64,000 bases of DNA from Caulobacter sp. SLTY (GTDB lineage: Bacteria > Pseudomonadota > Alphaproteobacteria > Caulobacterales > Caulobacteraceae), in NCBI RefSeq assembly GCF_009905535.1, contig NZ_JAAALA010000018.1, forward strand, positions 1 through 64,000, given 5' to 3'. The notes beneath the pieces are model-generated. The model was not told the origin of the DNA. It saw only the letters and a list, made by a program, of their open reading frames with translations, and ran no database searches. The translations under genes and the position numbers were made by a program. The first letter of the stretch is position 1; each line of letters opens with the position of its first letter. Shown here in pieces: positions 318-15,308 of this stretch.

Positions 318-3300
318 TCAGGAGTCGGGCCTTCCCCAGTCGGGCGTTTCCGGGGCCAAGCCCAGGCGCGCGCGGAGAGCGGGGAGAAAGAGGGCCAGCA
401 CCGGGTCGGTCGCGTGGGCCTTGAGGTGATCCAGGAGGCCTTCGGAATCCCAAGAGCCTTCCACGGTCGCCCTGAACGCCTCCGACATTCCTGTGAACGC
501 CTCCAAGCAAGCCTGATTGAAAGCGGCGTGCTGCCTAGCGACCCCTGAAACTCTTTCATCGTCTCCGAATGCGATGAGCACGCTCACACGGTCGGTCCAG
601 CAAGCCGCGGGCGGCGTCATCGGCTCCAACGCGTGGATGACGCCTCTCTGGCCCAACGCCCAACCGACCGCGACCTGCGGCCGCGGATCCCGTCGCCACC
701 ACTGAGCATGCCGCTCGTATATGGACGGGGCGCGCTCTTTGGGCCCGAGATTGCACAGGGCGGCGACGGCCATACTCCAGGCTTCAGCGATCTGAACCGA
801 TGAGGGCGTGTACCGCGCGCGCTCCTCCAGCGCCTTAAGCCACAGCTCCGCGCGATCCGGATGATCCGCCGCGACCCCGCTGACGAAGTTCGTGACGCTC
901 TTGGCCCACTCGACGGCGAGCTCGGGGGCTGCGCTCTCCGCCCCGGACCGCTCCTCCAGCGCTTTAAGCCACAGCTCCGCGAGATCCGGCTCAGACGCAG
1001 CCACGTCTGTGACGACGTTCATGACGCTCTTCGCCCACTCGACGGCGAGCTGGGGGGCTGCCCCCTCCGCCCCGGACCGCTCCTCCAGCGCCTTAAGCCA
1101 GAGCTCCGCGCGATCCGGCTCAGGCGCAGCCACGTCTGTGACGAAGTTCATGACGCTCTTAGCCCACTCGACGGCGAGCTCGGGGGCTGCGCCCTCCGCC
1201 CCGGACCGCTCCTCCAGCGCCTTCAGCCACAGCTCCGCCCGATCCGGGTGATTTGCCGCGCCCCCGCTGACGAAGTTCGTGACGCTCTTGGCCCACAGGA
1301 CGGCGAGCTCGGGGGCTGCGCCCTCCGCCCCCGACCGCTCCTCCAGCGCCTTAAGCCAGAGCTCCGCGCGAACCGGCTCAGGCGCAGCCAAGTCTGTGAC
1401 GAAGTTCATGACGCTATTAGCCCACGCGACGGCGAGCTCGGAGGCTGCGCCCTCCGCCCCGGACCGCTCCTCCAGCGCCGCAAGCCACAGCTCCGCGCGA
1501 TCCGGCTCAGGCGCAGCCACATCTGTGACGAAGTTCATGACGCTATTAGCCCAAGCGACGGCGAGCTCGGGGACTGCGCCCTCCGCCCCGGACCGCTCCT
1601 CCAGCGCCTTCAGCCACAGCTCCGCCCGATCCGGGTGATCCGCCGAGACACGACCGACGAAGTTCGTGACGCTCTTGGCCCACTCGACGGCGAGCTCGGG
1701 GGCTGCGCCCTCCGCCCCGGACCGCTCCTCCAGCGCCGCAAGCCACAGCTCCGCGCGATCCGGGTGATCCGCCGAGACACGGCCGACGAAGTTCTTGACG
1801 CTCTTGGCCCACTCGACGGCGAGCTCCGGGGCTGCGCCCTCCGCCCCGGACCGCTCCTCCAGCGCCTTAAGCCACAACTCCGCGCGATCCGGGTGATTCG
1901 CCGCGACCCCGCCGACGAAGTTCGTGACGCTCTTGGCCCACTCGACGGCGGGCTCGGGGGCTGCGCCCTCCGCCCTGAACCGCTCCTCCAGCGCCTCAAG
2001 CCACAGCTCCGCGCGATCCGGGTGATCCGCCGCGACACGGCCGACGAAGTTCGTAACGCTTTTAGCCCACTCGACGGCGAGCTCGGGGGCTGCCCCCTCC
2101 GCCCCGGACCGCTCCTCCAGCGCCTTAAGCAACAGCTCCGCGCGATCCGGCTCAGGCGCAGCCAAGTCTGTGACGAAGTTCATGACGCTACCAGCCCACA
2201 GGACGGCGAGCTCGGGGGCTGCGCCCTCCGCCCCGGACCGCTCCTCCAGCGCCTTAAGCCACAGCTCCGCTCGATCCGGCTCAGGCGCAGCCACGTCTGT
2301 GACGAAGTTCATGACGCTACTGGCCCACTCGACGGCGAGCTCGGAGGCTGCGCCCTCCGCCCCGGACCGCTCCTCCAGCGCCTTAAGCCACAGCTCCGCG
2401 CGAGCCGGATGATCCGCCGCGACCCCGCCGACGAAGTTCGTGACGCTCTTGGCCCACTCGACGGCGAGCTCGGGGGCTGCGCCCTCCGCCCCGGACCGCT
2501 CCTCCAGCGCCTTCAGCCACAGCTCCGCGCGATCCGGGTGATCCGCCGCGATACGGCCGACGAAGTTCGTGACGCTATTTGCCCACTCGACGGCGAGCTG
2601 GGGGGCTGCGCCCTCCGCCCCGGACCGCTCCTCCAGCGCCTTCAGCCAAACCTCCGCGCGATCCGGCTCAGGCGCAGCCACCTCTGTGACGAAGTTCATG
2701 ACGCTCTTGGCCCAAGCGACGGCGAGCTCGGGGGCTGCGCCCTCCGCCCCGGACCGCTCCACCAGTGCCTCGAGCCACAGCTCCGCCCGATCCGGGTGAT
2801 TTGCCGCGACACGGGCGACGAAGTTCGTGACGCTATTGGCCCACTCGACGGCGAGCTCGGGGGCTGCGCCCTCCGCCCCGGACCGCTCCTCCAGCGCCTT
2901 CAGCCACCGCGCCGCGCGATCCGGCTCAGGCGCAGCCACGTCTGTGACGAAGTTCATGACGCTACCAGCCCAAGCGACGGCGAGCTCGGGGGCTGCGCCC
3001 TCCGCCCCGGACCGCTCTTCCAGCGCCACGAGTTCAGCCTCCAATGTTGCATTTTTGAACACGCCAGCTGGCTGAGCGGTGGCGAAGAGCAAAAGGGCAG
3101 CGCCGGCCGCCCAAGCGGCCGAATCCGCGGCGTAAGTCTCTAGTTCAGTGAAGGCCTCGCGCAGCCGCTCATCTGCATCGCCGTCAGCGGTCGCGAAGGC
3201 ACGAGACGCCGCGTGGGCGTAGCTGTCGGCGACACCGGCGACGGGGCGATCCAACCCCAACCCTACGGCCAAGTCGGGAAAATCGCGCGCTGCGCGACCG

Positions 3301-5099
3301 CAGAACTCGGCCGTGGCCCGAGCGTCCCCTCTCCATGCCGTATCGGGCAGCCACACCTCCACCACGCCTGTACCGAGGTTCGGCTTTGACTGCGCGCGGA
3401 GGCGATCCAGCACGAAGTACTCACCCACCAAGTCGGGAAGCAGCCGGCCCAGAACGGCGCCTGCGCGCTGTCCCGGAGGAGCGAAGTGCTGCAACGTCGC
3501 GACACGTGGGTGCACCGCCTCGTCAGCCGCCCGCAACTGGACACCTCGGGGAAGGAAGGGAGCGTGACGCTGCGGCACATAGCCATCGACCATCGTCGAC
3601 AGCGCCAGCAGGTCTTCGGCGGTCTTCACCGCGTGATCGTCTCGCTCCCTGCCCCACCAAGTCTTCCGCTCGTGCTTGAGGTGTTCCTCCAGCAGCGCCT
3701 CCAAATCTGAGAAGTCCGTCTGACCGCGTCCGGCCGCCTCGGCGATGAGCAGGGCTGTCAGGGCGCGGTAGTCGGGGTCGAGGCGGGCCAGGACGTCGAA
3801 GAAGGCGTCGCGGTCGATGGGCGAGTCCGCGCGGAATGGCGCGGAGATCTCCCACAACTCATCCCGGGTAAGCGCCGGCAATTCCAGCGCGTTCTGAGCC
3901 CAGCGGTGCTGCTCTATACTTGGCCGGCTTGCTTGATCCTGCACGACCTGTGAGCGCACGATCGGATCGTCCGCTCGCTCCAAAAGGAGCACCCTAATCT
4001 TCGGTCCGCTCTGCGGCAGGCCAACGCACCAAGCAAGCAGTTCCCCCAACTCTTTCGCTTCGGACAGAACATAGTCGACGATGACCAAGTGCGGTCGGCC
4101 CGGATTCCAGAAGGCGGGCTGGACGAATTTGCGGATCTGCTGAGCGAACCCGACACGCCATTCGCCCTCCTGACGACGGGCCAGTTCCAAGGCGAACCGG
4201 CTCTTTCCGGCCCCCCCGCCGCCGACCACCATGTGCCAACGGAACATCGCCGGGTCGTCCAGGAACGCCTCGATCTCGGCCAGTTGGCGCTCGCGACCGA
4301 CGAAGGGAATCGCCGGGTTCTGGAAAGAGAGTCGATAGGTCTCCTCGAACGCCCCGGGACCGGGAAGCCAGAGCGGGACCGGCGGAGCGCCGAACAACGC
4401 GAGGTCCAGCTTTTCAGCGAGGGCGTGAACCGACGTCAGGTAATCAGTGAGTGAGGACACCTGCTGGCCGAGGAGCACCTGCCGTACGTGATCGACAAAA
4501 GTCTTCAGTTCTGGCTGCCGGAGCTTTCGGACCCAGGCGACCACGAAATGAGCGCACCAGCCTTGTTCCCCGTCGAAGTGCGTGTGGAGCCAGGGCAGCG
4601 CAGGGCGGGCGATGGCGAGATTGGCCGCGCTGTCCAATTCGGACCACGCGGCAGCGCGAGCGGCGGCCTGCGTGTCGATCTCTTGTCCTGCCTCTGGCTC
4701 GGCTAGCCCGTTCAGCGCCGTCCCGCGCAAGTCGGCCAGAACCGGCGCCCGGAGCTCATACTTCCCAGCCTGTTTGAGCTGGCCATCGATCCAAGCCAGG
4801 AGCGCATTGCAGAGAATGCGCTGAGGCGTCCCTTCGAAGCCCGCCTCGCTGGCAGCGCACTGGATGACACCGCGCATGGCCTCCAATTGGGCTTGGCGCA
4901 ACGCGGTAGCGATGAGCCGAGTCGGATCCGTCCTCGCCGCGCGACGATCGTCCAGGACCGCCTGCAGCTTGCTAGCGGCAATGTTGCCCGCGATGCTCGC
5001 AGCGCCCGTGAGAGCCATGCCAACTGGCCCGCCAATTGCCGTAGCGGCCGTGACCCCCGCGAACAGACAGCACCACAACGAGACGTCGATCTTGCTCAT
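318..5099 (-). CDS. STAND-like P-loop NTPase with 17 tandem 43-residue repeats
   Basis: A 1593-residue protein. Residues ~9-42 are hydrophobic and rich in Gly and Ala, a possible membrane-inserting segment. A FVGRE motif at ~266 opens the NTPase region; Walker A GGGGAGKS is at 293-300 and Walker B HLVIVDY at 337-343, as in STAND or AAA-like signalling ATPases. After a helical linker, residues ~691-1421 consist of 17 repeats of 43 residues (pattern LKALEERSGAEGAAPELAV, then ~24 more), followed by a degenerate 18th copy and ~150 C-terminal residues. The unit is longer than TPR (34) or Sel1 (~36-38). The ATG has a GGGGGT ribosome site. It stands alone, with no obvious partner gene. Known relatives of this layout (NLR-like proteins, Avs, SWACOS-type ATPases) act in conflict or programmed death; that role here is inference. 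Confidence 0.75.
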   Translation of the reverse strand: MSKIDVSLWCCLFAGVTAATAIGGPVGMALTGAASIAGNIAASKLQAVLDDRRAARTDPTRLIATALRQAQLEAMRGVIQCAASEAGFEGTPQRILCNALLAWIDGQLKQAGKYELRAPVLADLRGTALNGLAEPEAGQEIDTQAAARAAAWSELDSAANLAIARPALPWLHTHFDGEQGWCAHFVVAWVRKLRQPELKTFVDHVRQVLLGQQVSSLTDYLTSVHALAEKLDLALFGAPPVPLWLPGPGAFEETYRLSFQNPAIPFVGRERQLAEIEAFLDDPAMFRWHMVVGGGGAGKSRFALELARRQEGEWRVGFAQQIRKFVQPAFWNPGRPHLVIVDYVLSEAKELGELLAWCVGLPQSGPKIRVLLLERADDPIVRSQVVQDQASRPSIEQHRWAQNALELPALTRDELWEISAPFRADSPIDRDAFFDVLARLDPDYRALTALLIAEAAGRGQTDFSDLEALLEEHLKHERKTWWGRERDDHAVKTAEDLLALSTMVDGYVPQRHAPFLPRGVQLRAADEAVHPRVATLQHFAPPGQRAGAVLGRLLPDLVGEYFVLDRLRAQSKPNLGTGVVEVWLPDTAWRGDARATAEFCGRAARDFPDLAVGLGLDRPVAGVADSYAHAASRAFATADGDADERLREAFTELETYAADSAAWAAGAALLLFATAQPAGVFKNATLEAELVALEERSGAEGAAPELAVAWAGSVMNFVTDVAAPEPDRAARWLKALEERSGAEGAAPELAVEWANSVTNFVARVAANHPDRAELWLEALVERSGAEGAAPELAVAWAKSVMNFVTEVAAPEPDRAEVWLKALEERSGAEGAAPQLAVEWANSVTNFVGRIAADHPDRAELWLKALEERSGAEGAAPELAVEWAKSVTNFVGGVAADHPARAELWLKALEERSGAEGAASELAVEWASSVMNFVTDVAAPEPDRAELWLKALEERSGAEGAAPELAVLWAGSVMNFVTDLAAPEPDRAELLLKALEERSGAEGAAPELAVEWAKSVTNFVGRVAADHPDRAELWLEALEERFRAEGAAPEPAVEWAKSVTNFVGGVAANHPDRAELWLKALEERSGAEGAAPELAVEWAKSVKNFVGRVSADHPDRAELWLAALEERSGAEGAAPELAVEWAKSVTNFVGRVSADHPDRAELWLKALEERSGAEGAVPELAVAWANSVMNFVTDVAAPEPDRAELWLAALEERSGAEGAASELAVAWANSVMNFVTDLAAPEPVRAELWLKALEERSGAEGAAPELAVLWAKSVTNFVSGGAANHPDRAELWLKALEERSGAEGAAPELAVEWAKSVMNFVTDVAAPEPDRAELWLKALEERSGAEGAAPQLAVEWAKSVMNVVTDVAASEPDLAELWLKALEERSGAESAAPELAVEWAKSVTNFVSGVAADHPDRAELWLKALEERARYTPSSVQIAEAWSMAVAALCNLGPKERAPSIYERHAQWWRRDPRPQVAVGWALGQRGVIHALEPMTPPAACWTDRVSVLIAFGDDERVSGVARQHAAFNQACLEAFTGMSEAFRATVEGSWDSEGLLDHLKAHATDPVLALFLPALRARLGLAPETPDWGRPDS
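837..3029 (-). repeat. Tandem coding repeat array, 17 x 129 bp
   Basis: Seventeen contiguous units of 129 bp (43 codons) with very high DNA identity lie inside the STAND NTPase gene. The recurring block reads ccggaccgctcctccagcgc on the plus strand. Units fall in two types by their second half: one encodes VMNFVTDVAAPEPDRAELW, the other VTNFVGRVAADHPDRAELW. The unit is a multiple of three, so copies can be gained or lost in frame. It is not a CRISPR array: there are no unique spacers. Confidence 0.95.
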
Positions 5100-5176
5100 A
5101 CGCCACCCCCTTGCGTTGAACTTTACTGATCTGCCAGCTTATGAACAGTAGCCGGGGGTCCGCGGAGGTGAATTCT

Positions 5177-5230
5177 GTGAAAAGTCCAACATTCCCGCTG
5201 GTTCGTCCCACAGCGGGATCCGCTGATGGT
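5177..5230 (-). repeat. Imperfect direct repeat, right copy, upstream of the STAND NTPase gene
   Basis: Partner of the sequence at 75-131. This copy also holds a perfect inverted repeat, tcccgctg / cagcggga with a 10-base spacer. Read on the minus strand it contains gttggacttttcac, of which TTGGAC looks like a -35 box, but no clear -10 follows at 17 bases. It may be a promoter or operator for the NTPase gene. Confidence 0.4.
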
Positions 5231-5384
5231 CCGCCCTCCGCCGCTTGGCGGGTGCTTTGCCAGAAGATGTAGGGGCGCGTGTCATCCCTGATGGAAGCGG
5301 GCCTTCCGAACCCCCGCAATGAGTTAAACCTAGTCGCAGCGGATGATGGTCAGAATCCGCTAATGCGCGCTAGTTCGGCGACGG

Positions 5385-6353
<969 letters not shown>

Positions 6354-6382
6354 GCCCGCCCCTTAAATGTCAGCTGAAAAGA

Positions 6383-7381
6383 TCAAGCGCCGGCGGTCGC
6401 CGGTTGGCCGGCCGGCGCGTTGCGGCGGGTCTGCCGCTCGATCCATTCATAGGTCTTTTCCAGGCCCTGGGTCAGGGTGGCCGACGGGCGCCAGCCCAGG
6501 CGCTCCTCGATCAGGCGGTTGTCGGAGTTGCGGCCGCGCACCCCTTCCGGACCCGGGATGTGGTTGATGTGGATGGTCTTGCCGGCGATGTCGGCGACCA
6601 TGGCCACCAGCTGGTTGATCGAGACCATCTCGTCCGAGCCGATGTTGACCGGCCCCTCGAAGCCCGAGCGCAGCAGGCGGATCGTGCCCTCGACGCATTC
6701 GTCGATGTAGAGGAAGGAGCGGGTCTGCAGCCCGTCGCCCCAGACGTCGATCGTGCCGCCGTCAGCGGCCAGCGCGACCTTGCGGCAGATGGCGGCCGGG
6801 GCCTTTTCCTTGCCGCCGTCCCAGGTGCCCTCGGGGCCGAAGATGTTGTGGTATCGGGCCACGCGGCAGTTCATGCCGTAGTTGCGGTTGTAGGCGAGGT
6901 AGAGCCGCTCGGAGAACAGCTTTTCCCAGCCGTATTCGGAGTCCGGGGCGGCCGGATAGGCGCTGTCCTCGGCGCAGTTGGGGTTGTCCGGGTCTTCCTG
7001 GTTATAGGCCGGGTACATGCAGGCCGAGGAGGAATAGAAGAGGTTGTCGACGCCGCGCTCGCGGGCCTTGTGGACCACGTTGAGGTTGATGGTCGCCGAG
7101 TTGTGCATGATGTCGGCATCGTGCTCGCCGGTGAAGATGTAGCCGGCGCCGCCCATGTCGGCGGCCAGCTGGTAGACCTCGTCGAACTTGCGGTCGATGA
7201 CGGCGTCCACCACCTGCTGGTCGCGCAGGTCGCCCATGACGAAGTCGTCGGCCGCGGTCACGGCGTGCTCGTGCTCCTTCAGGTCGACGCCGCGAACCCA
7301 GAAGCCCTCGGCCTTCAGGCGCTTGACCAGATGGCCGCCGATGAATCCCCCGGCGCCGAGCACCAACGCTTGCCGTGTCAT
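6383..7381 (-). CDS. GDP-mannose 3,5-epimerase-like NAD-dependent epimerase
   Basis: A 332-residue extended SDR enzyme. The nucleotide motif is GAGGFIGGH (9-17) and the catalytic pair Y150 and K154 (YGWEK). Several stretches follow the plant GDP-mannose 3,5-epimerase closely: QLAADMGGAGYI, SSSACMYP, RYHNIFGPEGTWDGG with EKAPAAICRK, WGDGLQTRSF, INHIPGPEGVRGRNSDN. That enzyme converts GDP-mannose to GDP-L-galactose, and GDP-L-gulose as a side product. Its start overlaps the upstream glycosyltransferase stop by 4 bases (ATGA), which suggests coupled translation. GDP-mannose would come from the guanylyltransferase fusion at 38355. Specificity is inferred from motifs. Confidence 0.85.
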   Translation of the reverse strand: MTRQALVLGAGGFIGGHLVKRLKAEGFWVRGVDLKEHEHAVTAADDFVMGDLRDQQVVDAVIDRKFDEVYQLAADMGGAGYIFTGEHDADIMHNSATINLNVVHKARERGVDNLFYSSSACMYPAYNQEDPDNPNCAEDSAYPAAPDSEYGWEKLFSERLYLAYNRNYGMNCRVARYHNIFGPEGTWDGGKEKAPAAICRKVALAADGGTIDVWGDGLQTRSFLYIDECVEGTIRLLRSGFEGPVNIGSDEMVSINQLVAMVADIAGKTIHINHIPGPEGVRGRNSDNRLIEERLGWRPSATLTQGLEKTYEWIERQTRRNAPAGQPATAGA

Positions 7382-8577
7382 ATCGCAATGTCCTTCTTGG
7401 CGGCCCGCCCGCCGGCACGTTTTACAGGCGCGGCTGGCCCCCCAATCTGAGCGTCCGCGTCCCGCGTCTTCATAACCTCGTCGGCCAGCTTCTCAAGCGC
7501 CGATGCACAACCCTCTACATCGCCGACGTCCACCTGAATGTAGGGGGCGGTGCGCTGGCGGCCGAGCAGGTCCACGTCCGACTGGGTGGGGCCGATGAAC
7601 AGCAGCGGCGCCGGCAGCGGCAGACAGGCGTAGATCTTCGACGGCAGGACGTAGCCCCAGAACTCCGTCTTCTGCAGCACCAGGTGGGCGTCGGCGCTGT
7701 GCAGCACGCTGGGCAGATCCTCGATCGGAACCGGCGGGGTGACCACGATGGGCAGGTCGCGGGCTCGACATTCGTCGGCGAAGGGACCCAGGCGCGCGCC
7801 GGTGCCGTTGACCCAGATGCGCACCCGGTCGCTGCCCTGGCGGACGTGGCGCTCATAGGCGGCCAGGATGGTGTCGGTGTCGTGGGCGACGCCCATGTTG
7901 CCGGAATAGAGCAGCATCACCTTGTCGTCCGGCACGGCCCGCGGCAGGGGGCGGACCGGGGCGTCCGGCGCGAACGGGGCGCCGTCGCGGACCACGACGA
8001 TCTTGTCAGCCGGCATTCCGCCTTCGGCCAGGCGGCGCTTCTGGTCTTCACCCAGGGCCTCGATGCGGGTGGCGGCCTTGCGGACCAGGTGGAACAGGCC
8101 CTCCACGGGCTTGAGCCAGGGCATGTAGCCGGCGGCGAACACCGTCTCCGGATAGAAGTCGGTGATGCGGTAGATGATGTCCCGCCGCCAGGCGATCCAG
8201 TTCACCACGATGAAGATGTAGGACAGGAAGGGCGGCGAGCCGGTGACCAGGATCTCGGTCCCGGCCTTCGGGGTGGTGGCGATCCGCTCATTGGCGGCGC
8301 CCATCAGCTTCAGCGCCTGTTGCAATGCCCAGAGGCCGCGCTTGATCAGCGAACCGCCCTTGGCCGTGCCGACCGCGCCGACCCGGCGGATGGTCAGCCG
8401 GCCTGGGCCGATGACCTGTTCCTCAACGCCGTCCCGCTCGCCCAGGCCGACGATGGAGACCGTCTGGCCCTCGGCGGCGAGCTTTTCGGCGCGCTGCATC
8501 ATGTACTGGCCGACGGCCCCGAAGGCGGGCGGCAGCCAGTCGCAAACGATAACGGTATGGCGGTCCACGGAACTCAT
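7378..8577 (-). CDS. Glycosyltransferase, GT4/GT-B type
   Basis: A 399-residue cytosolic GT-B glycosyltransferase that probably adds one sugar to the lipid-linked repeat unit. The N-terminal fold shows the WLPPAFGAVGQYM loop (residues ~14-26) typical of GT4 enzymes, and the middle contains LLYSGNMGVAHDTD, the usual start of the C-terminal nucleotide-binding half. The classic E-x7-E signature is not obvious, as in the WbuB-like branch. The last ~20 residues are basic and probably unstructured. It is 3 bases from the upstream methyltransferase gene and overlaps the next by 4. Donor and acceptor are unknown. Confidence 0.8.
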   Translation of the reverse strand: MSSVDRHTVIVCDWLPPAFGAVGQYMMQRAEKLAAEGQTVSIVGLGERDGVEEQVIGPGRLTIRRVGAVGTAKGGSLIKRGLWALQQALKLMGAANERIATTPKAGTEILVTGSPPFLSYIFIVVNWIAWRRDIIYRITDFYPETVFAAGYMPWLKPVEGLFHLVRKAATRIEALGEDQKRRLAEGGMPADKIVVVRDGAPFAPDAPVRPLPRAVPDDKVMLLYSGNMGVAHDTDTILAAYERHVRQGSDRVRIWVNGTGARLGPFADECRARDLPIVVTPPVPIEDLPSVLHSADAHLVLQKTEFWGYVLPSKIYACLPLPAPLLFIGPTQSDVDLLGRQRTAPYIQVDVGDVEGCASALEKLADEVMKTRDADAQIGGPAAPVKRAGGRAAKKDIAI

Positions 8578-8580
8578 GGC

Positions 8581-9435
8581 CTAGCCGCCGTAGCGGAACC
8601 AGAAGCTGTGCGACGGGCCGTTGTTCAGGAACGGCAGGGCCTCGAACCACTTGCCCGAGCGCTTCAGGTAATGGCCGGGCCAGATCAGCTCATGCTTGCC
8701 GCCCTGCAGCAGGGCGTGGAGGACGTATTGCTCGCCCCAGCCGGCCCAGTCGCGGGCCTCGTGCTGCGGATACTCGTAGGGCAGGAAGATGTCGTGGACG
8801 TGGATGACCACGCCGGGCTTCAGCCGGGGAATGACGTCGCAGAACAGTCGGGCCACGTCGTTGCCGAGGTTGGCCAGGTGGCTGGAGTCGATGAACAGGA
8901 TGTCGCCGGGAACCAGCTCGTCGAAGATGCTGTAGTCGGTGACCTCTTCCAGGCGACGGCGCTCGAAGCGGTCGACGAAGGCCTCGATCTCGGCGCGGGG
9001 CCAGGGGTCGATGGCGATCAGCTGGGTGGAGAGGCCGCCGTCCTTGATGGCCTGACGGGTGATGCGGGTGCTGTGGCCGCAGCCGACCTCGACCACCCGG
9101 GCCGGCTTCAGGGTGCGGACCAGAAGATAGAGGGCGTCCACGTCGGGGCTGCGGAAGAAGGTGTTGTCGGGATTGTATCCGACGTCGTTGGTCTCGAGCT
9201 TGCGCAGCCGCTCGAGGGCCTCGCGATGCTCGTTGTAGGCGGCGGCCATCGGGCCGACGTCGAAGTCGGCCATGCCGGGCGACAGGGCGTAGACCGGGCG
9301 GTCGAACAGGCCCGCGGCGCTGAGCATATCGAGGCGGGCGTGTTCCCGCCGCTCGGCGGTCAGGGTCTCGAGGCGCAGGCCGGCGGCGCCGAGCACGCTG
9401 TTGATACCGGTCCGGACTTTGGTCGAAAACACCAC
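8581..9435 (-). CDS. Class I SAM-dependent methyltransferase (Methyltransf_24-like)
   Basis: 284 residues from a GTG at 9435; the frame stays open far upstream, into the next gene, but the GTG has AGAGGGG nine bases ahead and the upstream translation looks like a shadow. The SAM-binding motif VVEVGCGHST is at 114-123, an acidic strand end AIDPWP at ~141, LFIDSSH at ~180-186 and HVHDIFLPYEYP at ~212-223. It is related to the methyltransferase at 15305-16246, which shares the last motif as HDIYFPYDYP. It probably O-methylates a sugar of the polymer or a precursor. Substrate unknown. Confidence 0.8.
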   Translation of the reverse strand: MVFSTKVRTGINSVLGAAGLRLETLTAERREHARLDMLSAAGLFDRPVYALSPGMADFDVGPMAAAYNEHREALERLRKLETNDVGYNPDNTFFRSPDVDALYLLVRTLKPARVVEVGCGHSTRITRQAIKDGGLSTQLIAIDPWPRAEIEAFVDRFERRRLEEVTDYSIFDELVPGDILFIDSSHLANLGNDVARLFCDVIPRLKPGVVIHVHDIFLPYEYPQHEARDWAGWGEQYVLHALLQGGKHELIWPGHYLKRSGKWFEALPFLNNGPSHSFWFRYGG

Positions 9436-9496
9436 TGCAACAATCCCCTCTTTACCTGGCGAGAGCCTATAGCCGGTCAACGCGACGATCGCGCCC

Positions 9497-10300
9497 CTAA
9501 TCCTGCCGGCAGGCCCAGATGTTATGTTCGATCGCTTCGGAGCCGGGCGCCCAGGGCGTTCCGTCGACCTGACGCAAGGCGAATCCGGCGCCGGACAGGG
9601 CCTCGACGATGCGCGAACGCTCGGCCGGGTCGCTGTCGGGCAGCCACTCGAAGATGACGTGGTCGGTGACGCGGAGCATCTGCGCCGCCCCGGCCAGGAC
9701 CTCGGCCTCATAGCCCTCGACGTCGATCTTCAGCAGCCGCACCCCGGTCAGGCCGCGCCGCTGGGCCAGCTGGTCCAGGGTGATCAGCGGAACTTCGAAT
9801 CGCGCGGGCAGGTCGCTGACCCCCGCGCCGAGAGCGGTCAGCCGCGCCTTGTCGCTGGGCTTCTGGTTGTTCAGCTCGATGGAGCCGGGGGCGGCGCCGG
9901 CCGCGGCGACCACCACCACGATGTTCTCAAGGCCGTTGAGGGCGCTGTTGGTCAGCACCCGGTCAGCATTGTAGGGCTGGGGCTCGACCGCGATCACCTG
10001 GCCGGTGGGGCCGACGCAGCGGGCGGCGACCAGGGCGTGGAAGCCGACGTGGGCGCCCACGTCGATGCTGACGTCGCCGGGTCGCAGCAGCCGCTTCTGC
10101 AGGGCGATGGTGCGGGGCTCCTGCTCCTCCCCGGCCAGCAGGCTGATCTGCAGCCATTCCTGGGCGTCGAGCTGCATCCGCAGGCCTTCCGGCGCGGCGT
10201 CCACCGCCGGGGCCAGCAGGCGGCGCAGCGCGTTTTCCAGCCGATGGCGGCCACGGAATTTCGGCCCGCGGAGCAGGGCGCGATAGAGGGCGCGGATCAT
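9497..10300 (-). CDS. FkbM family methyltransferase
   Basis: A 267-residue SAM-dependent O-methyltransferase of the FkbM family, common in polysaccharide loci. Motif I is DVGAHVGFHAL (80-90), followed by IAVEPQPYN (~103-111) and the family mark LLKIDVEGYEAEVL (~189-202). The gene overlaps the upstream GT2 gene by 4 bases (ATGA), so it is translationally coupled; a 61-base gap separates it from the next methyltransferase. It is one of three FkbM genes in the locus (others at 24380 and 31078), each probably methylating a different hydroxyl. Substrate unknown. Confidence 0.85.
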   Translation of the reverse strand: MIRALYRALLRGPKFRGRHRLENALRRLLAPAVDAAPEGLRMQLDAQEWLQISLLAGEEQEPRTIALQKRLLRPGDVSIDVGAHVGFHALVAARCVGPTGQVIAVEPQPYNADRVLTNSALNGLENIVVVVAAAGAAPGSIELNNQKPSDKARLTALGAGVSDLPARFEVPLITLDQLAQRRGLTGVRLLKIDVEGYEAEVLAGAAQMLRVTDHVIFEWLPDSDPAERSRIVEALSGAGFALRQVDGTPWAPGSEAIEHNIWACRQD

Positions 10301-11157
10301 GGCTTCGCCTTCGGGGGTTGGATGCGGTTGGCGCCGGGCGGCTGGGACTGTTCGTAGGCGAGGATGGCCATCATCGCCTCGTAGACCGACAGCATGAAGG
10401 CGTAGACGAAGCCGGCGCGGCCATCGAGGAAGCCCCGGCGGACAAAGTAGATATAGACGAACCGCGCCACCGGCCGCAGGAACAGAGGCAGGCGGCCGGC
10501 CAGGGCCTTGGCGGCGCGGCGGCGCTCGGTGGGGTCGGAGGAGGAGAGCTTGGCCGTCTCCTTCGCCCCCTCGGCTCGGGCGGCGACGATCACCGCAGCC
10601 TCGTCGGCGGCATAGCGGACATGCTTGTCCAGCCAGCGGCGCAGGCCGTGGGAGAAGCTGTAGTGCAGCAGGGCCTCGGGGAAATCGCCGACCCGCTCAG
10701 GCGGCAGATCCTCACGCTGGCCGTGGCCGACCTGGACGAAGCGCAGGCGCTGGGCGTGGCCCAGCCGCACCTGGTAGGCGGGCCACATGCCGGCGTGGCG
10801 CAGCCACTGGCCGAAGAAGATGGTCTTGAACGGCACGCGCCAGGCGTCGAGGTGGTCGGTCGGCTGCAGCGCTTCCAGGGCGGCGAGGAAGGCCGGGGTG
10901 ACGATCTCGTCGGCGTCCAGGTGCAGTATCCACTCGTGGCGGAAGTCGCCGTGCTCCAGGGCGTAGTTGCGCTGGCCGGCGAAGTCGTCGAACGGCCGGT
11001 GCAGCAGGCGGCAACCATGGGCCTTGGCGATCTCGACGCTGTCGTCGGTGCTGCCGCTGTCGATGACCAGGATGTCGTCGCACCAGCTGAGCGCGGCGAG
11101 GCAGGCGGGCAGGTTGGCCGCCTCGTTGAAGGTCAGGATGAGGATCGAGACCTTCAT
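10297..11157 (-). CDS. Glycosyltransferase family 2 (WaaE/KdtX-like)
   Basis: A 286-residue GT-A enzyme. It starts with the GT2 pattern VSILILTFNEAANL, then DDILVIDSGSTDDS (27-40) and the metal-binding DADE at 81-84. The region FAGQRNYALEHG and the order of motifs match the WaaE/KdtX group, which adds glucose or heptose to lipopolysaccharide core or exopolysaccharide. The C-terminal part (FVYIYFVRRGFLDGRAG) is typical of the same group and may touch the membrane. It overlaps both neighbours by 4 bases. The true acceptor here is likely the exopolysaccharide unit, by context. Confidence 0.85.
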   Translation of the reverse strand: MKVSILILTFNEAANLPACLAALSWCDDILVIDSGSTDDSVEIAKAHGCRLLHRPFDDFAGQRNYALEHGDFRHEWILHLDADEIVTPAFLAALEALQPTDHLDAWRVPFKTIFFGQWLRHAGMWPAYQVRLGHAQRLRFVQVGHGQREDLPPERVGDFPEALLHYSFSHGLRRWLDKHVRYAADEAAVIVAARAEGAKETAKLSSSDPTERRRAAKALAGRLPLFLRPVARFVYIYFVRRGFLDGRAGFVYAFMLSVYEAMMAILAYEQSQPPGANRIQPPKAKP

Positions 11158-11714
11158 TTGGCCCCCATGGCTGGGCGCTGGCGCACCGGTTTGGCCGGAT
11201 TGCCGGCAACGATGGTCCAGGCGGGAACGTCCTTCACCGCCACCGCTCGGGCGGCGACGATCGCGAACTCACCCACGGTGACGTCCGGACCGACGAAGGC
11301 GTCGGCGCAGACCCAGGCCCCCTCCCCGATCCCGATGGTCGCCTTGACCAGCGGCAGGTCAACGCTGGCGTAGTCATGGGTGCCGGCGCAGAGGTGGGCG
11401 TTCTGGGAGACGGTGGCCTTGGGGCCGATGGTGATCGGGCCGAGGTTGTAAAGCTGGACGTTGTCGCCGACGGCGGCGTAGTCGCCGATGTCCAGGTTCC
11501 ACGGCACGGTGATCCGCACGGTGGGATGCAGGTGCACATCGCGCCCGATCCGGGCCCCGAACAGGCGCAGCATGGTGCGCCGCCAGCCCCAGAGCTGGCG
11601 CGGGCTGAGGCGGAACAGGAACTGGGAGACGTCCCATAGGGCGCGGCCGGCCAGTTCGCCCCGGCTCCATTTGCGGGCCCGACGGTTGGCGGCGATGTCC
11701 AGATCGTCGGTCAC
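11154..11714 (-). CDS. WcaF-type left-handed beta-helix acetyltransferase
   Basis: 186 residues from a GTG at 11714, chosen because it overlaps the TGA of the upstream glycosyltransferase (GTGA) and because the frame beyond it does not resemble the family. Hexapeptide repeats run from ~57 to ~175 (IGRDVHLHP, IGDYAAVGDNVQLYN, IGPKATVSQNAHL). CAGTHDY at 109-115 and the ending WTIVAGNPAKPVR are characteristic of WcaF/maltose-type O-acetyltransferases using acetyl-CoA. It probably O-acetylates a sugar in the cytosol before export. Confidence 0.85.
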   Translation of the reverse strand: MTDDLDIAANRRARKWSRGELAGRALWDVSQFLFRLSPRQLWGWRRTMLRLFGARIGRDVHLHPTVRITVPWNLDIGDYAAVGDNVQLYNLGPITIGPKATVSQNAHLCAGTHDYASVDLPLVKATIGIGEGAWVCADAFVGPDVTVGEFAIVAARAVAVKDVPAWTIVAGNPAKPVRQRPAMGAK

Positions 11715-12853
11715 AGGCGCACCGTGGCCGGCGGCTCGCCGCCAGTGGCGGCCCAGCGGTAGGCGTCCAGCATTTCCCGGCCGATCCGGTCCCAGGAGAA
11801 GTCGCGGCGCATCCAGGCCCACCCCTTTTCACCCATGTCGGCCAGCTCGGCCGGCGGACGCGCCATGGCTTCGGTCAGAGCGGCGGCGAGGGAGGCCTCG
11901 CCGGTCTCCACCCACCAGCCGCAGCCCTCGGTGACGAGACCCGCCCAGGGCGCGCCGGTGGTTGATATCACCGGTACGCCGGCCGCCAAGGCCTCGGCGA
12001 CGGTCATGGCGAAATTCTCGTTGAGCGTCGACAGAACGAACAGATCGGCGGCGCGGTAGGTCGTCAGCTTGTCGGCCCCGAACACCGGACCCTCGATGCT
12101 CACGTTGGAGAGGTTCAGGGTCCTGGCCAGGGCGATCAGCTCGCCGGCGTGGCCGCCTTCGTCCGGGCCAACGATGCGCAGGCGCCAGCCGTCAGTGGCG
12201 GCGCCGAGGCGCGACCAGGCGCGGACCAGGGCGTCGAGGCCCTTCTTGGGGTGGATGCGGCCGAGCGACAGGACGGTGCGGGTAGCCTGGGGCGCTGGCC
12301 GGTCCAGGGGCGGGACATCGATGCCGTTGGCGATGACCGTGACCGGGTTGGTCAGGCCCATGGCGCGGATGTCGTCGAACTCCTGGTCGCTGGTGGCGTG
12401 AAACAGGGCCGCTGCGCGGGCGGCCGCGCCCTGAGCCAGGCTCCACATCAGCTTCTTCTTGCTGGCGGAAAAGGCCATGGCCGGACCACCGAGCATGCCC
12501 CGGGGCGAGATAACCAGGGCCTTGCCAGCCGCCCGCGCGGCGGCGGCGGGATAGACGTTGGGGGCCAGCCACAGGCCGTGGGCGTGGAGGATGTCGGTGG
12601 TGGGCGCGGCCTGGCGCAGGGCCTGGTCCATGGCGGCGGATAGGCGAAGCTGGGAGAAGACGGGAACGCCGGCCAGGGTCTGCGGGAAGACGCGGTGGGT
12701 GACGCCGTCGCCGATGTCGCGCGGCCTGGCCCCGATGGAAAACAGCGACACCTCCGCCCCCGCCCGGGCCACGGCGGCCGACAGCCGCGGGGCCGAGTAG
12801 GACGGGCCGGCGGCCTCGTCATCGATGGAGGCGACGATCTGGACTACACGCAT
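11711..12853 (-). CDS. Glycosyltransferase family 4
   Basis: A 380-residue GT-B glycosyltransferase. The N-terminal half has the acceptor-side motif DDEAAGPSYSAPRLS (~11-25); the C-terminal half begins VLSLGRIHPKKGLDALVRAW and carries the E-x7-E signature within STLNENFAMTVAEALAAGVP, which binds the nucleotide-sugar donor. It sits two bases after the acyltransferase gene and overlaps the WcaF-type gene by 4 bases. It probably transfers a hexose from a GDP- or UDP-sugar to the growing lipid-linked unit; specificity cannot be read from sequence. Confidence 0.85.
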   Translation of the reverse strand: MRVVQIVASIDDEAAGPSYSAPRLSAAVARAGAEVSLFSIGARPRDIGDGVTHRVFPQTLAGVPVFSQLRLSAAMDQALRQAAPTTDILHAHGLWLAPNVYPAAAARAAGKALVISPRGMLGGPAMAFSASKKKLMWSLAQGAAARAAALFHATSDQEFDDIRAMGLTNPVTVIANGIDVPPLDRPAPQATRTVLSLGRIHPKKGLDALVRAWSRLGAATDGWRLRIVGPDEGGHAGELIALARTLNLSNVSIEGPVFGADKLTTYRAADLFVLSTLNENFAMTVAEALAAGVPVISTTGAPWAGLVTEGCGWWVETGEASLAAALTEAMARPPAELADMGEKGWAWMRRDFSWDRIGREMLDAYRWAATGGEPPATVRL

Positions 12854-12855
12854 GG

Positions 12856-13947
12856 TCAGGCCGACGTCGGCTCCCCGGCAGGCGGGCGGGGCGCGGGCTT
12901 GAGCCGCGCGCCGGCCCAGCGGGCGAACTGGTGGGCCGGCTTCTCGCAGATCAGGTAGAAGACGTAGGAGAAGGCCAGGATGAAGGCGAACTTCAACAAC
13001 CAGCCGAAGATCAGCCCGAGGCTGGGGATAGCCAGCGAGACGTAGACGATCGCCGCCAGCTTATGGACCAGATACAGCGAATAGCTCCACCGGCCGGTCC
13101 ATTCGAGCCAGACCGGCGGCTTGTGGATGGCGTAGTGGGTCACCTCGGCCGCCAGCCACAGGGTGACCACGATGGCGAAGACGTTGAGGGTCCAGGGATA
13201 GCCCACCGGGCTGTGATAGCGCAGCACCATGCACAGGCTCATCCCCGCCCAGGCCGCGCCGCGCAGTGGCCAGACCCAGCCGGCGAAGCGGTTCAGCCGC
13301 CCCTTGAGGTAGGCGTCGGCCAGCCAGCAGCCCATCAGCCAGCAGGGCAGGCCCAGCAGCCAGTTCAGATGGGTCCCGTACTTGGGATACTCGCCCTGGC
13401 CCGGATCGGTGGCCGCCACCCCGAGCGCCAGAATGAAGGACACAACGACCAGCGGCATCCAGCCCCCGACCCGCCGCCTCAGGATCAGCAGCAGCGGGTA
13501 GATGGTGTAGTAGATCAGCTCGCAGACGACGCTCCACAGGATGGTGCCCTCGAACAGCGACAGGCTGAGCCCCACCGTCATCGACAACAGGATGGCGGCG
13601 ATGGCCGGGATCAGGATGCGGATGTAGCGGCGGGCGAAGTACTCCCGCACCGACGGGATCCGGTTGGTGGCCGCATAGGCGTAATGGATCACGAATCCGG
13701 AGATCACGAAGAAGGCGATCACCGCCGCCGCCGAGGACCACAGATTGCTCAGCAGGCCGTTGAGCAGCTTGCCGGCGATGTGGCTGGTGTCGATCCCCTC
13801 GCGCAGGGGCGGCTGGCCGGTATGGGCGAAGACCACGATGGCCGCGCAGATGAACCGGACGGTGTCCAGGCCATTGAGGCGCGGCGGGGCCGCCGCCCTG
13901 GGCGCCGAAGGGGGCGTGGCGGCGCGGGTCTCGTCCGGCCCGATCAT
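12856..13947 (-). CDS. Acyltransferase 3 family membrane protein
   Basis: A 363-residue integral membrane protein with about ten hydrophobic helices. The N-terminal motif LDTVRFICAAIVVFAHTGQP holds the conserved Arg and His of acyltransferase-3 (OafA/ExoZ) proteins, which move acyl groups, usually acetyl, onto extracytoplasmic carbohydrates. AVIAFFVISGFVIHY and ARRYIRILIPAI are further family marks. It overlaps the PaaK-like gene by 4 bases. It is one of three such genes in the locus (also 25320 and 32138), so the polymer is probably acylated at several sites. Confidence 0.88.
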   Translation of the reverse strand: MIGPDETRAATPPSAPRAAAPPRLNGLDTVRFICAAIVVFAHTGQPPLREGIDTSHIAGKLLNGLLSNLWSSAAAVIAFFVISGFVIHYAYAATNRIPSVREYFARRYIRILIPAIAAILLSMTVGLSLSLFEGTILWSVVCELIYYTIYPLLLILRRRVGGWMPLVVVSFILALGVAATDPGQGEYPKYGTHLNWLLGLPCWLMGCWLADAYLKGRLNRFAGWVWPLRGAAWAGMSLCMVLRYHSPVGYPWTLNVFAIVVTLWLAAEVTHYAIHKPPVWLEWTGRWSYSLYLVHKLAAIVYVSLAIPSLGLIFGWLLKFAFILAFSYVFYLICEKPAHQFARWAGARLKPAPRPPAGEPTSA

Positions 13948-15308
13948 GTCTGCACGCTCCCCACCGCTCCGCCCCCCGACGTGATGGCGCCCTTATCGGA
14001 CGGTTCGGGCGACAAGTCAGCCTCGTCGATGACCATTCGGTGTTTTCCGGCCATGGAGGGCGGTATGGCCGCCGTCCACGACAGGGCGGTGTCGGCCAGA
14101 GCCGGAGCGACCCGCGCCAGCCGGGCGCGCAAGTCCGCCGCCGCCGCCTCACCCAGCGGCGCATCGGCCTCATAGCGGATCATCGGCAAGGCGCCAGGGC
14201 GGCGGACGATCTGGTAGGCGCGCACGCCGGGCGCATCGCGCACGGTGTGGGTGAAGGCTTCGGAGTGGATCACCGCCCCGTCCGGCAGGGTCACCGCCTC
14301 GTTGGAGCGACCGAACACGGCCTTGAGGCCGACCAGTCCGCCCTCCCCCGTTCCCTCGGGCAGCACCAGGTCGCCCAGGGCGTAGCGCAGCAGCGGCAGG
14401 GCGCGGGGGAACAGGCAGGTGACCACCGCCTCGCGGGCGCCGGCCTCGTTGGGCGGGCCGACCAGTTCGAGGCGGTGGCGGGCCCAGAAGACATCGTAGC
14501 CGCCGGCCGCGCGCTCATAGGCCATCGGGCCGGTCTCCACCGCGCCGTACTCCATGGCGACGGGACAGCCGAAGCAGTCGGCGACGACCTGGCGGCTGTC
14601 GGCGCGGGGGAAGCCCTCTGCGGTGGCGATCACCGCGGCCAGGTTCAGGCGGCGCAGCTCGGCGGCGCGGTGGGCGTTGGCGCGGGCGAAGCGGTCGAGG
14701 GCCGAGGCATAGCCGATCACGTAGCGGGCGCGGCTCTTCAACAGGGCGTCGGCGGCGCGGTTCAGGTCGTCCGGGGTCAGCTGGTAGGCGTTCCAGCGGG
14801 TGTAGCCGAGGGCGGCGTCGGACAGCCGCCGCTTGAGGCCGGTGACGAAGCCCTTGAACAGATGGCTATGGCCCCAGATCAGGAACAGCCGGTCGTCCGG
14901 GGCAATACCGAGGCGCTGGCGGCCGAGCCAGCCGTCCAGGCCGGCCAAAGCCGTCTCCGAGGCGAAGACGGGGAAGCGCAGGGGTTCGGCGGTGGTCCCG
15001 CCGGTGGAGCGCCAGAGCACTTCGGGTTCGCCGGTCTGCACGGCATCGACGTCGAGGCGCAGTTCGGGCTTCCGCTGGACCGGGACAAGGCTTTCGTACT
15101 GCTCCCAGCTGGAAAAGCTGTCGGGGAGCGAGAGGCGGCCTTGCTGGGCGCGGGCCCAGGGGGAGCGAGCGAGGCTTTCGGTCCAGGCGGCGTTGAGCGC
15201 CGCCAGCTGCAGCGCCGGCACGGCGGCGGGATCGGCCTCGTACGCCGGGCCGTACCCGGCGAGATCGGCCTTCAACCGTCGACTGCGCAGGGCCGCCAGC
15301 AGGGTCAT
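13944..15308 (-). CDS. PaaK/CapK-like adenylate-forming enzyme
   Basis: A 454-residue protein of the phenylacetate-CoA ligase / coenzyme F390 synthetase-like group (CapK). The phosphate-binding signature STGGTTAEPLRFP starts at residue 101; FGCPVAMEYGAVETG is the adenylate-binding region. Such proteins activate a carboxylate with ATP, but CapK members in capsule loci have no proven reaction. Here it lies between an acyltransferase and a methyltransferase, with 4-base overlaps on both sides, which hints that it activates a non-acetyl acyl group or amino acid used to decorate the polymer. That last step is inference. Confidence 0.75.
   Translation of the reverse strand: MTLLAALRSRRLKADLAGYGPAYEADPAAVPALQLAALNAAWTESLARSPWARAQQGRLSLPDSFSSWEQYESLVPVQRKPELRLDVDAVQTGEPEVLWRSTGGTTAEPLRFPVFASETALAGLDGWLGRQRLGIAPDDRLFLIWGHSHLFKGFVTGLKRRLSDAALGYTRWNAYQLTPDDLNRAADALLKSRARYVIGYASALDRFARANAHRAAELRRLNLAAVIATAEGFPRADSRQVVADCFGCPVAMEYGAVETGPMAYERAAGGYDVFWARHRLELVGPPNEAGAREAVVTCLFPRALPLLRYALGDLVLPEGTGEGGLVGLKAVFGRSNEAVTLPDGAVIHSEAFTHTVRDAPGVRAYQIVRRPGALPMIRYEADAPLGEAAAADLRARLARVAPALADTALSWTAAIPPSMAGKHRMVIDEADLSPEPSDKGAITSGGGAVGSVQT

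Follow-up and report, generated by a model that had tools for sequence, protein, structure and literature searches.

Introduction

The 64-kb window analyzed here, which is the whole stretch of DNA under study and the start of an 88,906-base contig of a draft genome (87 contigs), opens with a long gene whose product joins a hydrophobic N-terminus and a P-loop NTPase to a long array of tandem repeats. A preliminary description, made from the letters alone, had proposed that this protein is a STAND NTPase serving as an immune or cell-suicide receptor. The locus thus raises the question of what kind of protein this is, how it would act and what its repeat array is for. The question has a wider bearing, for the triggers of microbial NLRs were almost all unknown according to excerpts of a 2021 review (PMC7889193).

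Results

The gene and its genomic setting

318-5099, minus strand: gene (open frame) for a 1593-aa putative STAND-like NTPase with a C-terminal repeat array
5100-5384, no strand: upstream stretch with a GC content of 0.59 (computed on 5100-5387) against 0.69 for the window
5385-6353, minus strand: neighboring gene for a GDP-mannose dehydratase-like protein (Pfam), beside sugar-locus genes

The coordinates 318-5099 originally given for the gene are correct, and to them we add the strand, which had not been named: translation starts with an ATG at 5099 and stops at 318-320 on the minus strand, while on the plus strand stops interrupt the same frame. A 760-aa open frame (861-3143, plus strand) is a shadow of the repeat array on the opposite strand and no sign of a gene. 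On the downstream side 317 bp remain between the gene and the contig end, a second copy of which was not found in the same genome. Upstream, a gap of 285 bp leads to the dehydratase-like neighbor and the adjoining sugar locus, which comprises a second epimerase, methyltransferases, a glycosyltransferase and an acyltransferase; this locus is the setting of the gene, and no defense island is visible around it. Third-position GC amounts to 0.80 for the gene and 0.76 for its N-terminal and NTPase parts, to be compared with 0.875-0.944 for nine frames at 5385-15308 and with values similar to the gene's or lower (0.65-0.77) for five other listed frames of the window. Because these frames were taken as listed, without a one-by-one check as genes, the lower third-position GC hints at a different history of the gene and is no proof of it.

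The NTPase core and its relation to STAND proteins

3180-4337, minus strand: NTPase core, approximately residues 255-640 (first row of alignment and profile A1; Pfam AAA_16, E 1.1e-5)
4200-4223, minus strand: Walker A motif GGGGAGKS, residues 293-300 (G293, G296, G298 and K299 invariant in 16/16 sequences)
4071-4091, minus strand: Walker B motif HLVIVDY, residues 337-343 (D342 invariant in 16/16, Y343 in at least 90%)
3432-3437, minus strand: conserved Pro-Asp pair, residues 555-556, within LPDLVGE (invariant in 16/16; P316 and D317 of the aligned segment)

Both Walker motifs lie where they had first been placed. G293, G298, K299, S300, D342 and Y343 do not vary in an alignment of eight sequences, and the 16 NTPase sequences of A1 have eight invariant columns, of which the P-loop accounts for four, a Gly and the Walker B Asp for one each and the Pro-Asp pair far downstream for the last two. 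The named STAND profiles (NACHT, NB-ARC and nSTAND) do not match the NTPase segment of the 1593-aa protein, to which Pfam assigns AAA_16 alone, with 26.4 bits and hence under the cut-off of 32.6. Among the members of A1 (E up to 0.01), AAA_16 is matched by 13 of the 16, nSTAND_NTPase5 by seven, nSTAND3 by two and NACHT by one. A search of the protein's own genome with nSTAND_NTPase5 (PF25199; E up to 1) returned 49 matches that resemble common P-loops, and the 1593-aa protein is not among them. Judged by sequence, the NTPase clade is STAND-like, and the 1593-aa protein is assigned to it via its relatives, with no curated model fitting the protein itself. The region that follows the NTPase (residues 410-640), where a NOD would have its helical and winged-helix parts, is modeled as helices with mixed confidence.

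The PADLOC library, which we take to contain Avs models, gave DrmC as the sole match to the 1593-aa protein at E up to 1 and no Avs model; on the 16 NTPase segments it gave five scattered weak models, each in at most two members. A PDB sequence search with the whole protein (E up to 1) found nothing, and one with the NTPase profile found ArsA-type ATPases alone, over the P-loop stretch. A DnaA-like PHROG match (E 0.22) was rejected as a P-loop. The AlphaFold model of residues 1-960, built from eight sequences, has a mean pLDDT of 62.6 with low confidence in the N-terminal helices; its fold search yielded SAMD9 (E 2e-4) and the STAND-TPR protein 6mfv (E 4.4e-3), both of which we set aside, as the TM-scores were about 0.2 and the model was poor. 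The VIA comparison of the same model covered mostly residues 493-960.

The repeat array is a predicted alpha-solenoid built from two cassette types

819-3011, minus strand: 17 tandem 43-aa repeats, residues 697-1427, modeled as an alpha-solenoid (repeat finding and model)
318-818, minus strand: C-terminal cap or tail, residues 1428-1593, plus stop (no repeat identity; mostly low pLDDT past the first 40 residues)

The array is far beyond chance: Tandem Repeats Finder reports 17.1 copies of a 129-bp period at 820-3027 (87% matches, score 3067) and, at a longer period, 5.7 copies of 387 bp (score 3465), the copy number being dependent on the draft assembly of 87 contigs. Of the 17 near-identical 43-residue repeats announced in the preliminary description, number and length stand and "near-identical" was a little generous: pairwise DNA identity between units ranges over 80-97%, since the array intermingles two cassette types of 9 and 8 units. 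At the protein level every neighboring pair of units is at least 85% identical across 150 aa (period 43), a length beyond the 100 aa that define high internal conservation at this identity; the same holds over at least 100 residues for the repeats of six of the 27 proteins examined, this one included.

A single-sequence model of residues 656-1593 consists of regular helix pairs, with ten-residue mean pLDDT values of 63-95 in the array, mostly above 76, and with helix A at positions 8-25 and helix B at positions 30-44 of the unit. Its fold search produced many alpha-solenoids (importin beta, CAND1, armadillo, PPR), the best VIA match having a Z of 18.7 and an rmsd of 17.2 over 374 aligned residues. 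The model thus speaks for an alpha-solenoid and nothing narrower, and what suggests a relation to TPRs is the sequence, compared by eye, rather than the fold. Structure prediction had been proposed at first for the N-terminus and one repeat block; the N-terminal model is of low confidence.

Profile hits on the repeats call for caution. It had been said at the outset that a profile hit to a non-STAND family would count against a STAND receptor, and by the letter such hits occurred. PADLOC matched DrmC with an E of 1.6e-20 and 71.6 bits in total, which is about 4 bits per copy, and its best stretch, confined to a single repeat, spans positions 4-37 of the 244-position profile; Pfam matched Bac_rhamnosid_C with an E of 4.8e-6, over its cut-off, with no single stretch passing. 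Because we read the score in both cases as a sum over 17 copies, and because the DrmC match fails to span the domain, we rejected DISARM DrmC and Bac_rhamnosid_C as identities and read both matches as artefacts of repetition. The same was concluded for MlrA_C (under its cut-off), DUF1327, Utp12, threonine synthase and two PHROGs.

Where the repeats vary

The closest architecture found is that of the plasmid protein QIE43105 of Rhodobacteraceae SC52 (L023), encoded amid IS5, IS481 and IS3 transposases. Its NTPase is a member of the clade (30.6% across the aligned core). Like the 1593-aa protein it has a hydrophobic start and an array in the same W14/N20 frame, here of eight regular repeats of 42 aa followed by a divergent final unit; it differs in its N-terminal sequence (hydropathy maximum 1.13) and in having fewer repeats.

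Over all codons of the units, pN is 0.110 and pS 0.168 (dN/dS 0.62). Ten variable codons (13, 16, 19, 23, 24, 25, 28, 29, 35 and 38) have a pN of 0.363 and a pS of 0.355, as against 0.028 and 0.119 for the remaining 33, a contrast that is partly circular because the codons were picked by their own variation. With the ten positions that vary in L023, picked without the window, the array gives a pN of 0.242 and a pS of 0.218, and 0.070 and 0.152 at the other 33. Taken by cassette type, the contrast becomes smaller: pN/pS at the L023 positions is 0.117/0.175 in type A (9 units) versus 0.044/0.138 elsewhere, and 0.093/0.133 in type B (8 units) versus 0.061/0.081 elsewhere, which is hardly any contrast. 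Much of the variability pattern thus reflects how types A and B differ, for positions 19, 29 and most of 23-28 follow cassette type, whereas 13 and 16 change among units of one type. The variable positions are richer in synonymous change too, which is what simple divergence of a block of DNA between the two cassettes would produce. At no codon set does pN clearly exceed pS, as positive selection would have it, and the ratios, which are no proof of selection, are compatible with relaxed constraint, with divergence of blocks or with mild diversification.

Replacements cluster at a small number of positions, most of which lie on one face of helix A: a helical wheel puts 13, 16, 19, 23 and 24 in an arc of about 140 degrees, which also holds Asn20, present in 17/17 units. 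In L023, W14 and N20 are constant in all eight regular units; 13, 19, 23 and 24 are variable there, as are 3, 7, 12, 28, 31 and 37, of which 3, 7, 12, 31 and 37 hardly vary in the 1593-aa protein. Positional entropies of the two arrays are correlated across positions 8-31 (Spearman 0.58, p 0.003) and less strongly across 1-31 (0.43, p 0.015), and the overlap of variable positions is modest (hypergeometric p 0.027 with analyst-chosen cut-offs), the ninth, divergent unit of L023 being left out throughout. In three further relatives the search pattern caught 4-5 units each, and a divergent first unit was kept, which inflates variability: 16, 23 and 24 are the most variable positions in L040, the twelve most variable ones of L123 include 13, 16, 23 and 24, and in L121 only 16 of these four stands out. 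Of L128 two units were caught and no count was made.

These data bear directly on the purpose of the array, which could have come about by slippage, gene conversion and divergence of two cassettes without any diversifying role, in a protein that may nevertheless be an NLR-like receptor. We grant this explanation a substantial minority chance: it is favored by pN and pS values that are nearly the same at the variable codons, by the denser synonymous change there and by the faint contrast inside type B, whereas it sits less well with the holding of most codons (the 33 codons above, a split from the same data) and with helix-A positions that vary in L023 and in the 1593-aa protein alike.

The N-terminus and its counterparts in relatives

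4395-5099, minus strand: N-terminal region, residues 1-235, predicted helical, a possible effector or adaptor (weak likeness to L030, L037, L073 and L133)
4962-5090, minus strand: hydrophobic Gly/Ala-rich stretch, residues 4-46 (hydropathy; helices at 6-22 and 25-55 at low pLDDT)

The N-terminus is hydrophobic and rich in Gly and Ala, just as first noticed, its best 19-residue Kyte-Doolittle mean being 1.74 (residues 4-22). Pfam has no match for residues 1-235. In relatives of the clade, the N-termini of L037 and L073 are clearly related to each other (E 3.7e-9), and in a leave-one-out profile test L037, L073 and L133 score above all 1000 shuffles. The 1593-aa protein reaches 7.4 bits in this test, a score equalled by 2 of 1000 shuffles and, when the test was repeated, by 2 of 2000; the scores of L030 and L023 fall inside the shuffles (29 and 47 of 1000). 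This suggests an N-terminal domain common to the 1593-aa protein and the Gly-rich N-termini of the clade, the likeness being marginal. As a query of its own, the N-terminus gives weak matches scattered over 12 of the 384 other genomes of the class (E up to 0.01, best 0.0013) and over 2 of 298 other genomes of the phylum at E up to 0.001.

Elsewhere in the clade the NTPase is preceded by quite different sequences. By annotation, Kitasatospora and Streptomyces plasmid relatives carry a trypsin-like N-terminus and a neighboring trypco2 gene (Trypco2 is named in PMC7159879). The N-terminus of L028 is nuclease-like and that of L121 pentapeptide-like, both by eye; L030, L073 and L133 share with the 1593-aa protein a helical, Gly/Ala-rich N-terminus; and L027, L031, L034 and L036 have short N-termini bearing an amyloid-type motif. 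Sequence comparison thus indicates that the N-termini of the clade are interchangeable on one NTPase, many of the C-termini being helical repeats.

In three of the four motif bearers (L027, L031 and L036) a Gly/Ala-rich protein of 121-127 aa is encoded directly downstream of the receptor, and its C-terminal motif resembles the N-terminal motif of the receptor; at L034 no small downstream gene was seen. The small proteins have no Pfam match over the cut-off, and the pairs were judged by motif pattern. This layout is that of the bacterial BELL/BASS amyloid NLR signalosomes as portrayed in excerpts of PMC7889193 and PMC8086366; the 1593-aa protein differs, having no such motif pattern and a downstream side that lies beyond the contig end. 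As a separate observation, these BELL/BASS-like pairs (L027:1132-1497, L031:4628-5002 and L036:10094-10474, with a GNIAVQ-type receptor motif) occur in the window's own class, and a passage of PMC7889193 stresses filamentous actinobacteria and cyanobacteria. L042 encodes, at 6428-8299 and 10127-12988, two nearby STAND-type proteins with N-termini of DNA-binding type by eye, and their matches are to the P-loop alone.

Judging by its composition and by the small proteins that partner the receptors of relatives, the N-terminus of the 1593-aa protein is plausibly a membrane effector. A receptor of the same type whose N-terminus is instead an adaptor (Death-like/EAD or similar), recruiting a separate effector perhaps encoded beyond the contig end, strikes us as rather unlikely, although it would suit the separate small candidate effectors downstream of L027, L031 and L036, the contig end 317 bp past the stop and an N-terminus of some 235 residues of predicted helix in which the first part alone is strongly hydrophobic. 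Against it count the missing GNIAVQ-type motif pattern of those relatives and the hydrophobic start, which is more effector-like.

Distribution among related genomes

With the first 633 residues as query, none of 60 relatives (36 belong to the same genus) gave a match, and at least 16 of 384 other genomes of the class did, three first-look candidates being scored per genome. Four plasmids match this query as well; phages gave no match, and of 12 candidates on viral contigs none was confirmed. Profile A1 matched over at least 190 positions in at least 2 of 74 other genomes of the genus, 16 further genomes with short matches having been excluded, and over at least 250 positions in at least 18 of 384 other genomes of the class, 60 further genomes with matches spanning fewer positions having been excluded; 12 of these 18 match of necessity, being the source of rows in A1. 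Both counts are lower bounds because part of the first-look candidates was scored per genome (24 in the genus and 4 in the class). Two scans of genome contigs for relatives returned 0 and 15 loci, respectively, and four of the 15 (L136, L137, L139 and L141) were discarded by eye as other families. Two of those discarded encode related Chloroflexi proteins (L136:5083-8040 and L137:5083-8052) in which a SIR2-like N-terminus, by eye, is fused to a STAND-type ATPase. No second genome carrying the gene itself was found among those searched. The presence/absence survey suggested in the preliminary description thus reveals a patchy occurrence, with a comparable NTPase in at least 2 of 74 other genomes of the genus.

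The dehydratase-like neighbor is found with at least 70% identity in 36 of the same 74 genomes. In 12 of the 74, picked from better matches on long contigs, DNA similarity to the window breaks off at the 3' end of this neighbor or at most some 85 bp from it; different genes follow, several of them TonB-receptor-like by eye. In these 12 relatives the upstream stretch at 5100-5384 has no blastn match, and A1 at E up to 10 finds nothing in the 9-10 kb around the neighbor gene. A conserved housekeeping context, which had initially been named as an argument against a defense receptor, was not found in the 12 relatives read, and distribution and context together fit an accessory gene.

Discussion

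On balance we consider it somewhat probable that the 1593-aa protein is an NLR-like STAND receptor, in which a repeat sensor, an NTPase switch and an N-terminal output serve to kill or arrest the cell against an invader. The identity as an NLR-type receptor is likely as such, and by analogy defense or regulated cell death would be its most probable role. The tripartite order of variable N-terminus, NTPase and superstructure-forming repeats is present, and the initial view of a STAND-like NTPase in NLR order has held up with respect to motifs, domain order, relatives with exchanged N-termini and patchy spread. In the mechanism that we propose, the repeat solenoid would hold the protein off until a foreign or altered protein binds along the helix A face. 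Binding would be followed by nucleotide exchange and oligomerization of the NTPase, upon which the clustered N-termini could act, most likely as Gly/Ala-rich helices that disturb the inner membrane. Killing or arrest of the cell by the N-termini would then stop the phage or other invader.

It is possible, in addition, that the sensor changes fast. Recombination among near-copy repeats might alter their number and order and with them the specificity, as in fungal NLRs. In its fullest form this would be a recombining cassette array, in which two types and a few variable contact codons give rise to new specificities by unequal crossing-over, fused to a membrane-killing N-terminus; we put this forward tentatively, deeming it rather doubtful as a whole, and the fast-changing receptor so conceived may be likened to fungal het/NWD genes.

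How does such a receptor compare with known systems? Anti-phage STAND proteins of the Avs/bNACHT kind are tripartite and contain a STAND switch; some of them have TPR sensors. The 1593-aa protein is like them in its order and in its putative switch and differs in matching no Avs or NACHT profile. A summary of these proteins is given in a section of PMC10907252. LypB of Caulobacter crescentus, a CARD-NLR, likewise has an ATPase followed by TPR-like repeats; LypABC is, however, a three-gene system with peptidases, as described in excerpts of PMC13236601, and the 1593-aa protein matches no peptidase family. The fungal NLRs of high internal conservation share the effector-NOD-repeat order and have repeats that are at least 85% identical across no fewer than 100 aa, and they differ in their NACHT or NB-ARC NTPases, according to passages of Dyrka 2014 (PMC4986451). 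The same passages put repeats of this kind at 16% in fungal NLRs versus 0.4-1.2% in plants, animals and dikarya at large. They also report, for Podospora, repeat-number polymorphism and positive selection at likely contact positions of NLR repeats, whereas the array studied here has similar pN and pS at its variable codons and comes from one genome. Among the reports listed in the literature search, which lay outside the main Avs/bNACHT papers, such repeats in NLRs were met in fungal ones and in no bacterial one, from which we derive no claim of priority.

Two further roles have to be weighed against the defense receptor that we favor. Fungal allorecognition follows cell fusion, and bacteria do not undergo fusion of that kind, which argues against a receptor for allorecognition or kin discrimination instead of phage defense and makes it quite improbable. 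What recommends this role is the style of the repeats, which recalls fungal NLRs, a group with some members active in allorecognition by the account of excerpts of PMC4986451 and PMC7889193. Least probable is a STAND transcription regulator or metabolic sensor (MalT/SWACOS-like), given that the gene is missing from most relatives, that its N-terminus is hydrophobic and that no DNA-binding family was matched, MlrA_C on the repeats staying under its cut-off. Many STAND proteins are regulators, and L042, from the weak tail of the search, has an N-terminus of DNA-binding type by eye.

If the reading as a defense receptor with a reshufflable sensor is true, bacteria and fungi would have come to one answer to the same problem, in which the specificity of NLRs is stored in near-copy repeats, and the array would be a testable map from repeat order to trigger. 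The clade also offers a natural comparison, as one switch appears with a trypsin-like, an amyloid-partner or a Gly-rich output. Finally, an E value of 1.6e-20 for DrmC on a repeat protein is a warning for the automatic annotation of defense genes.
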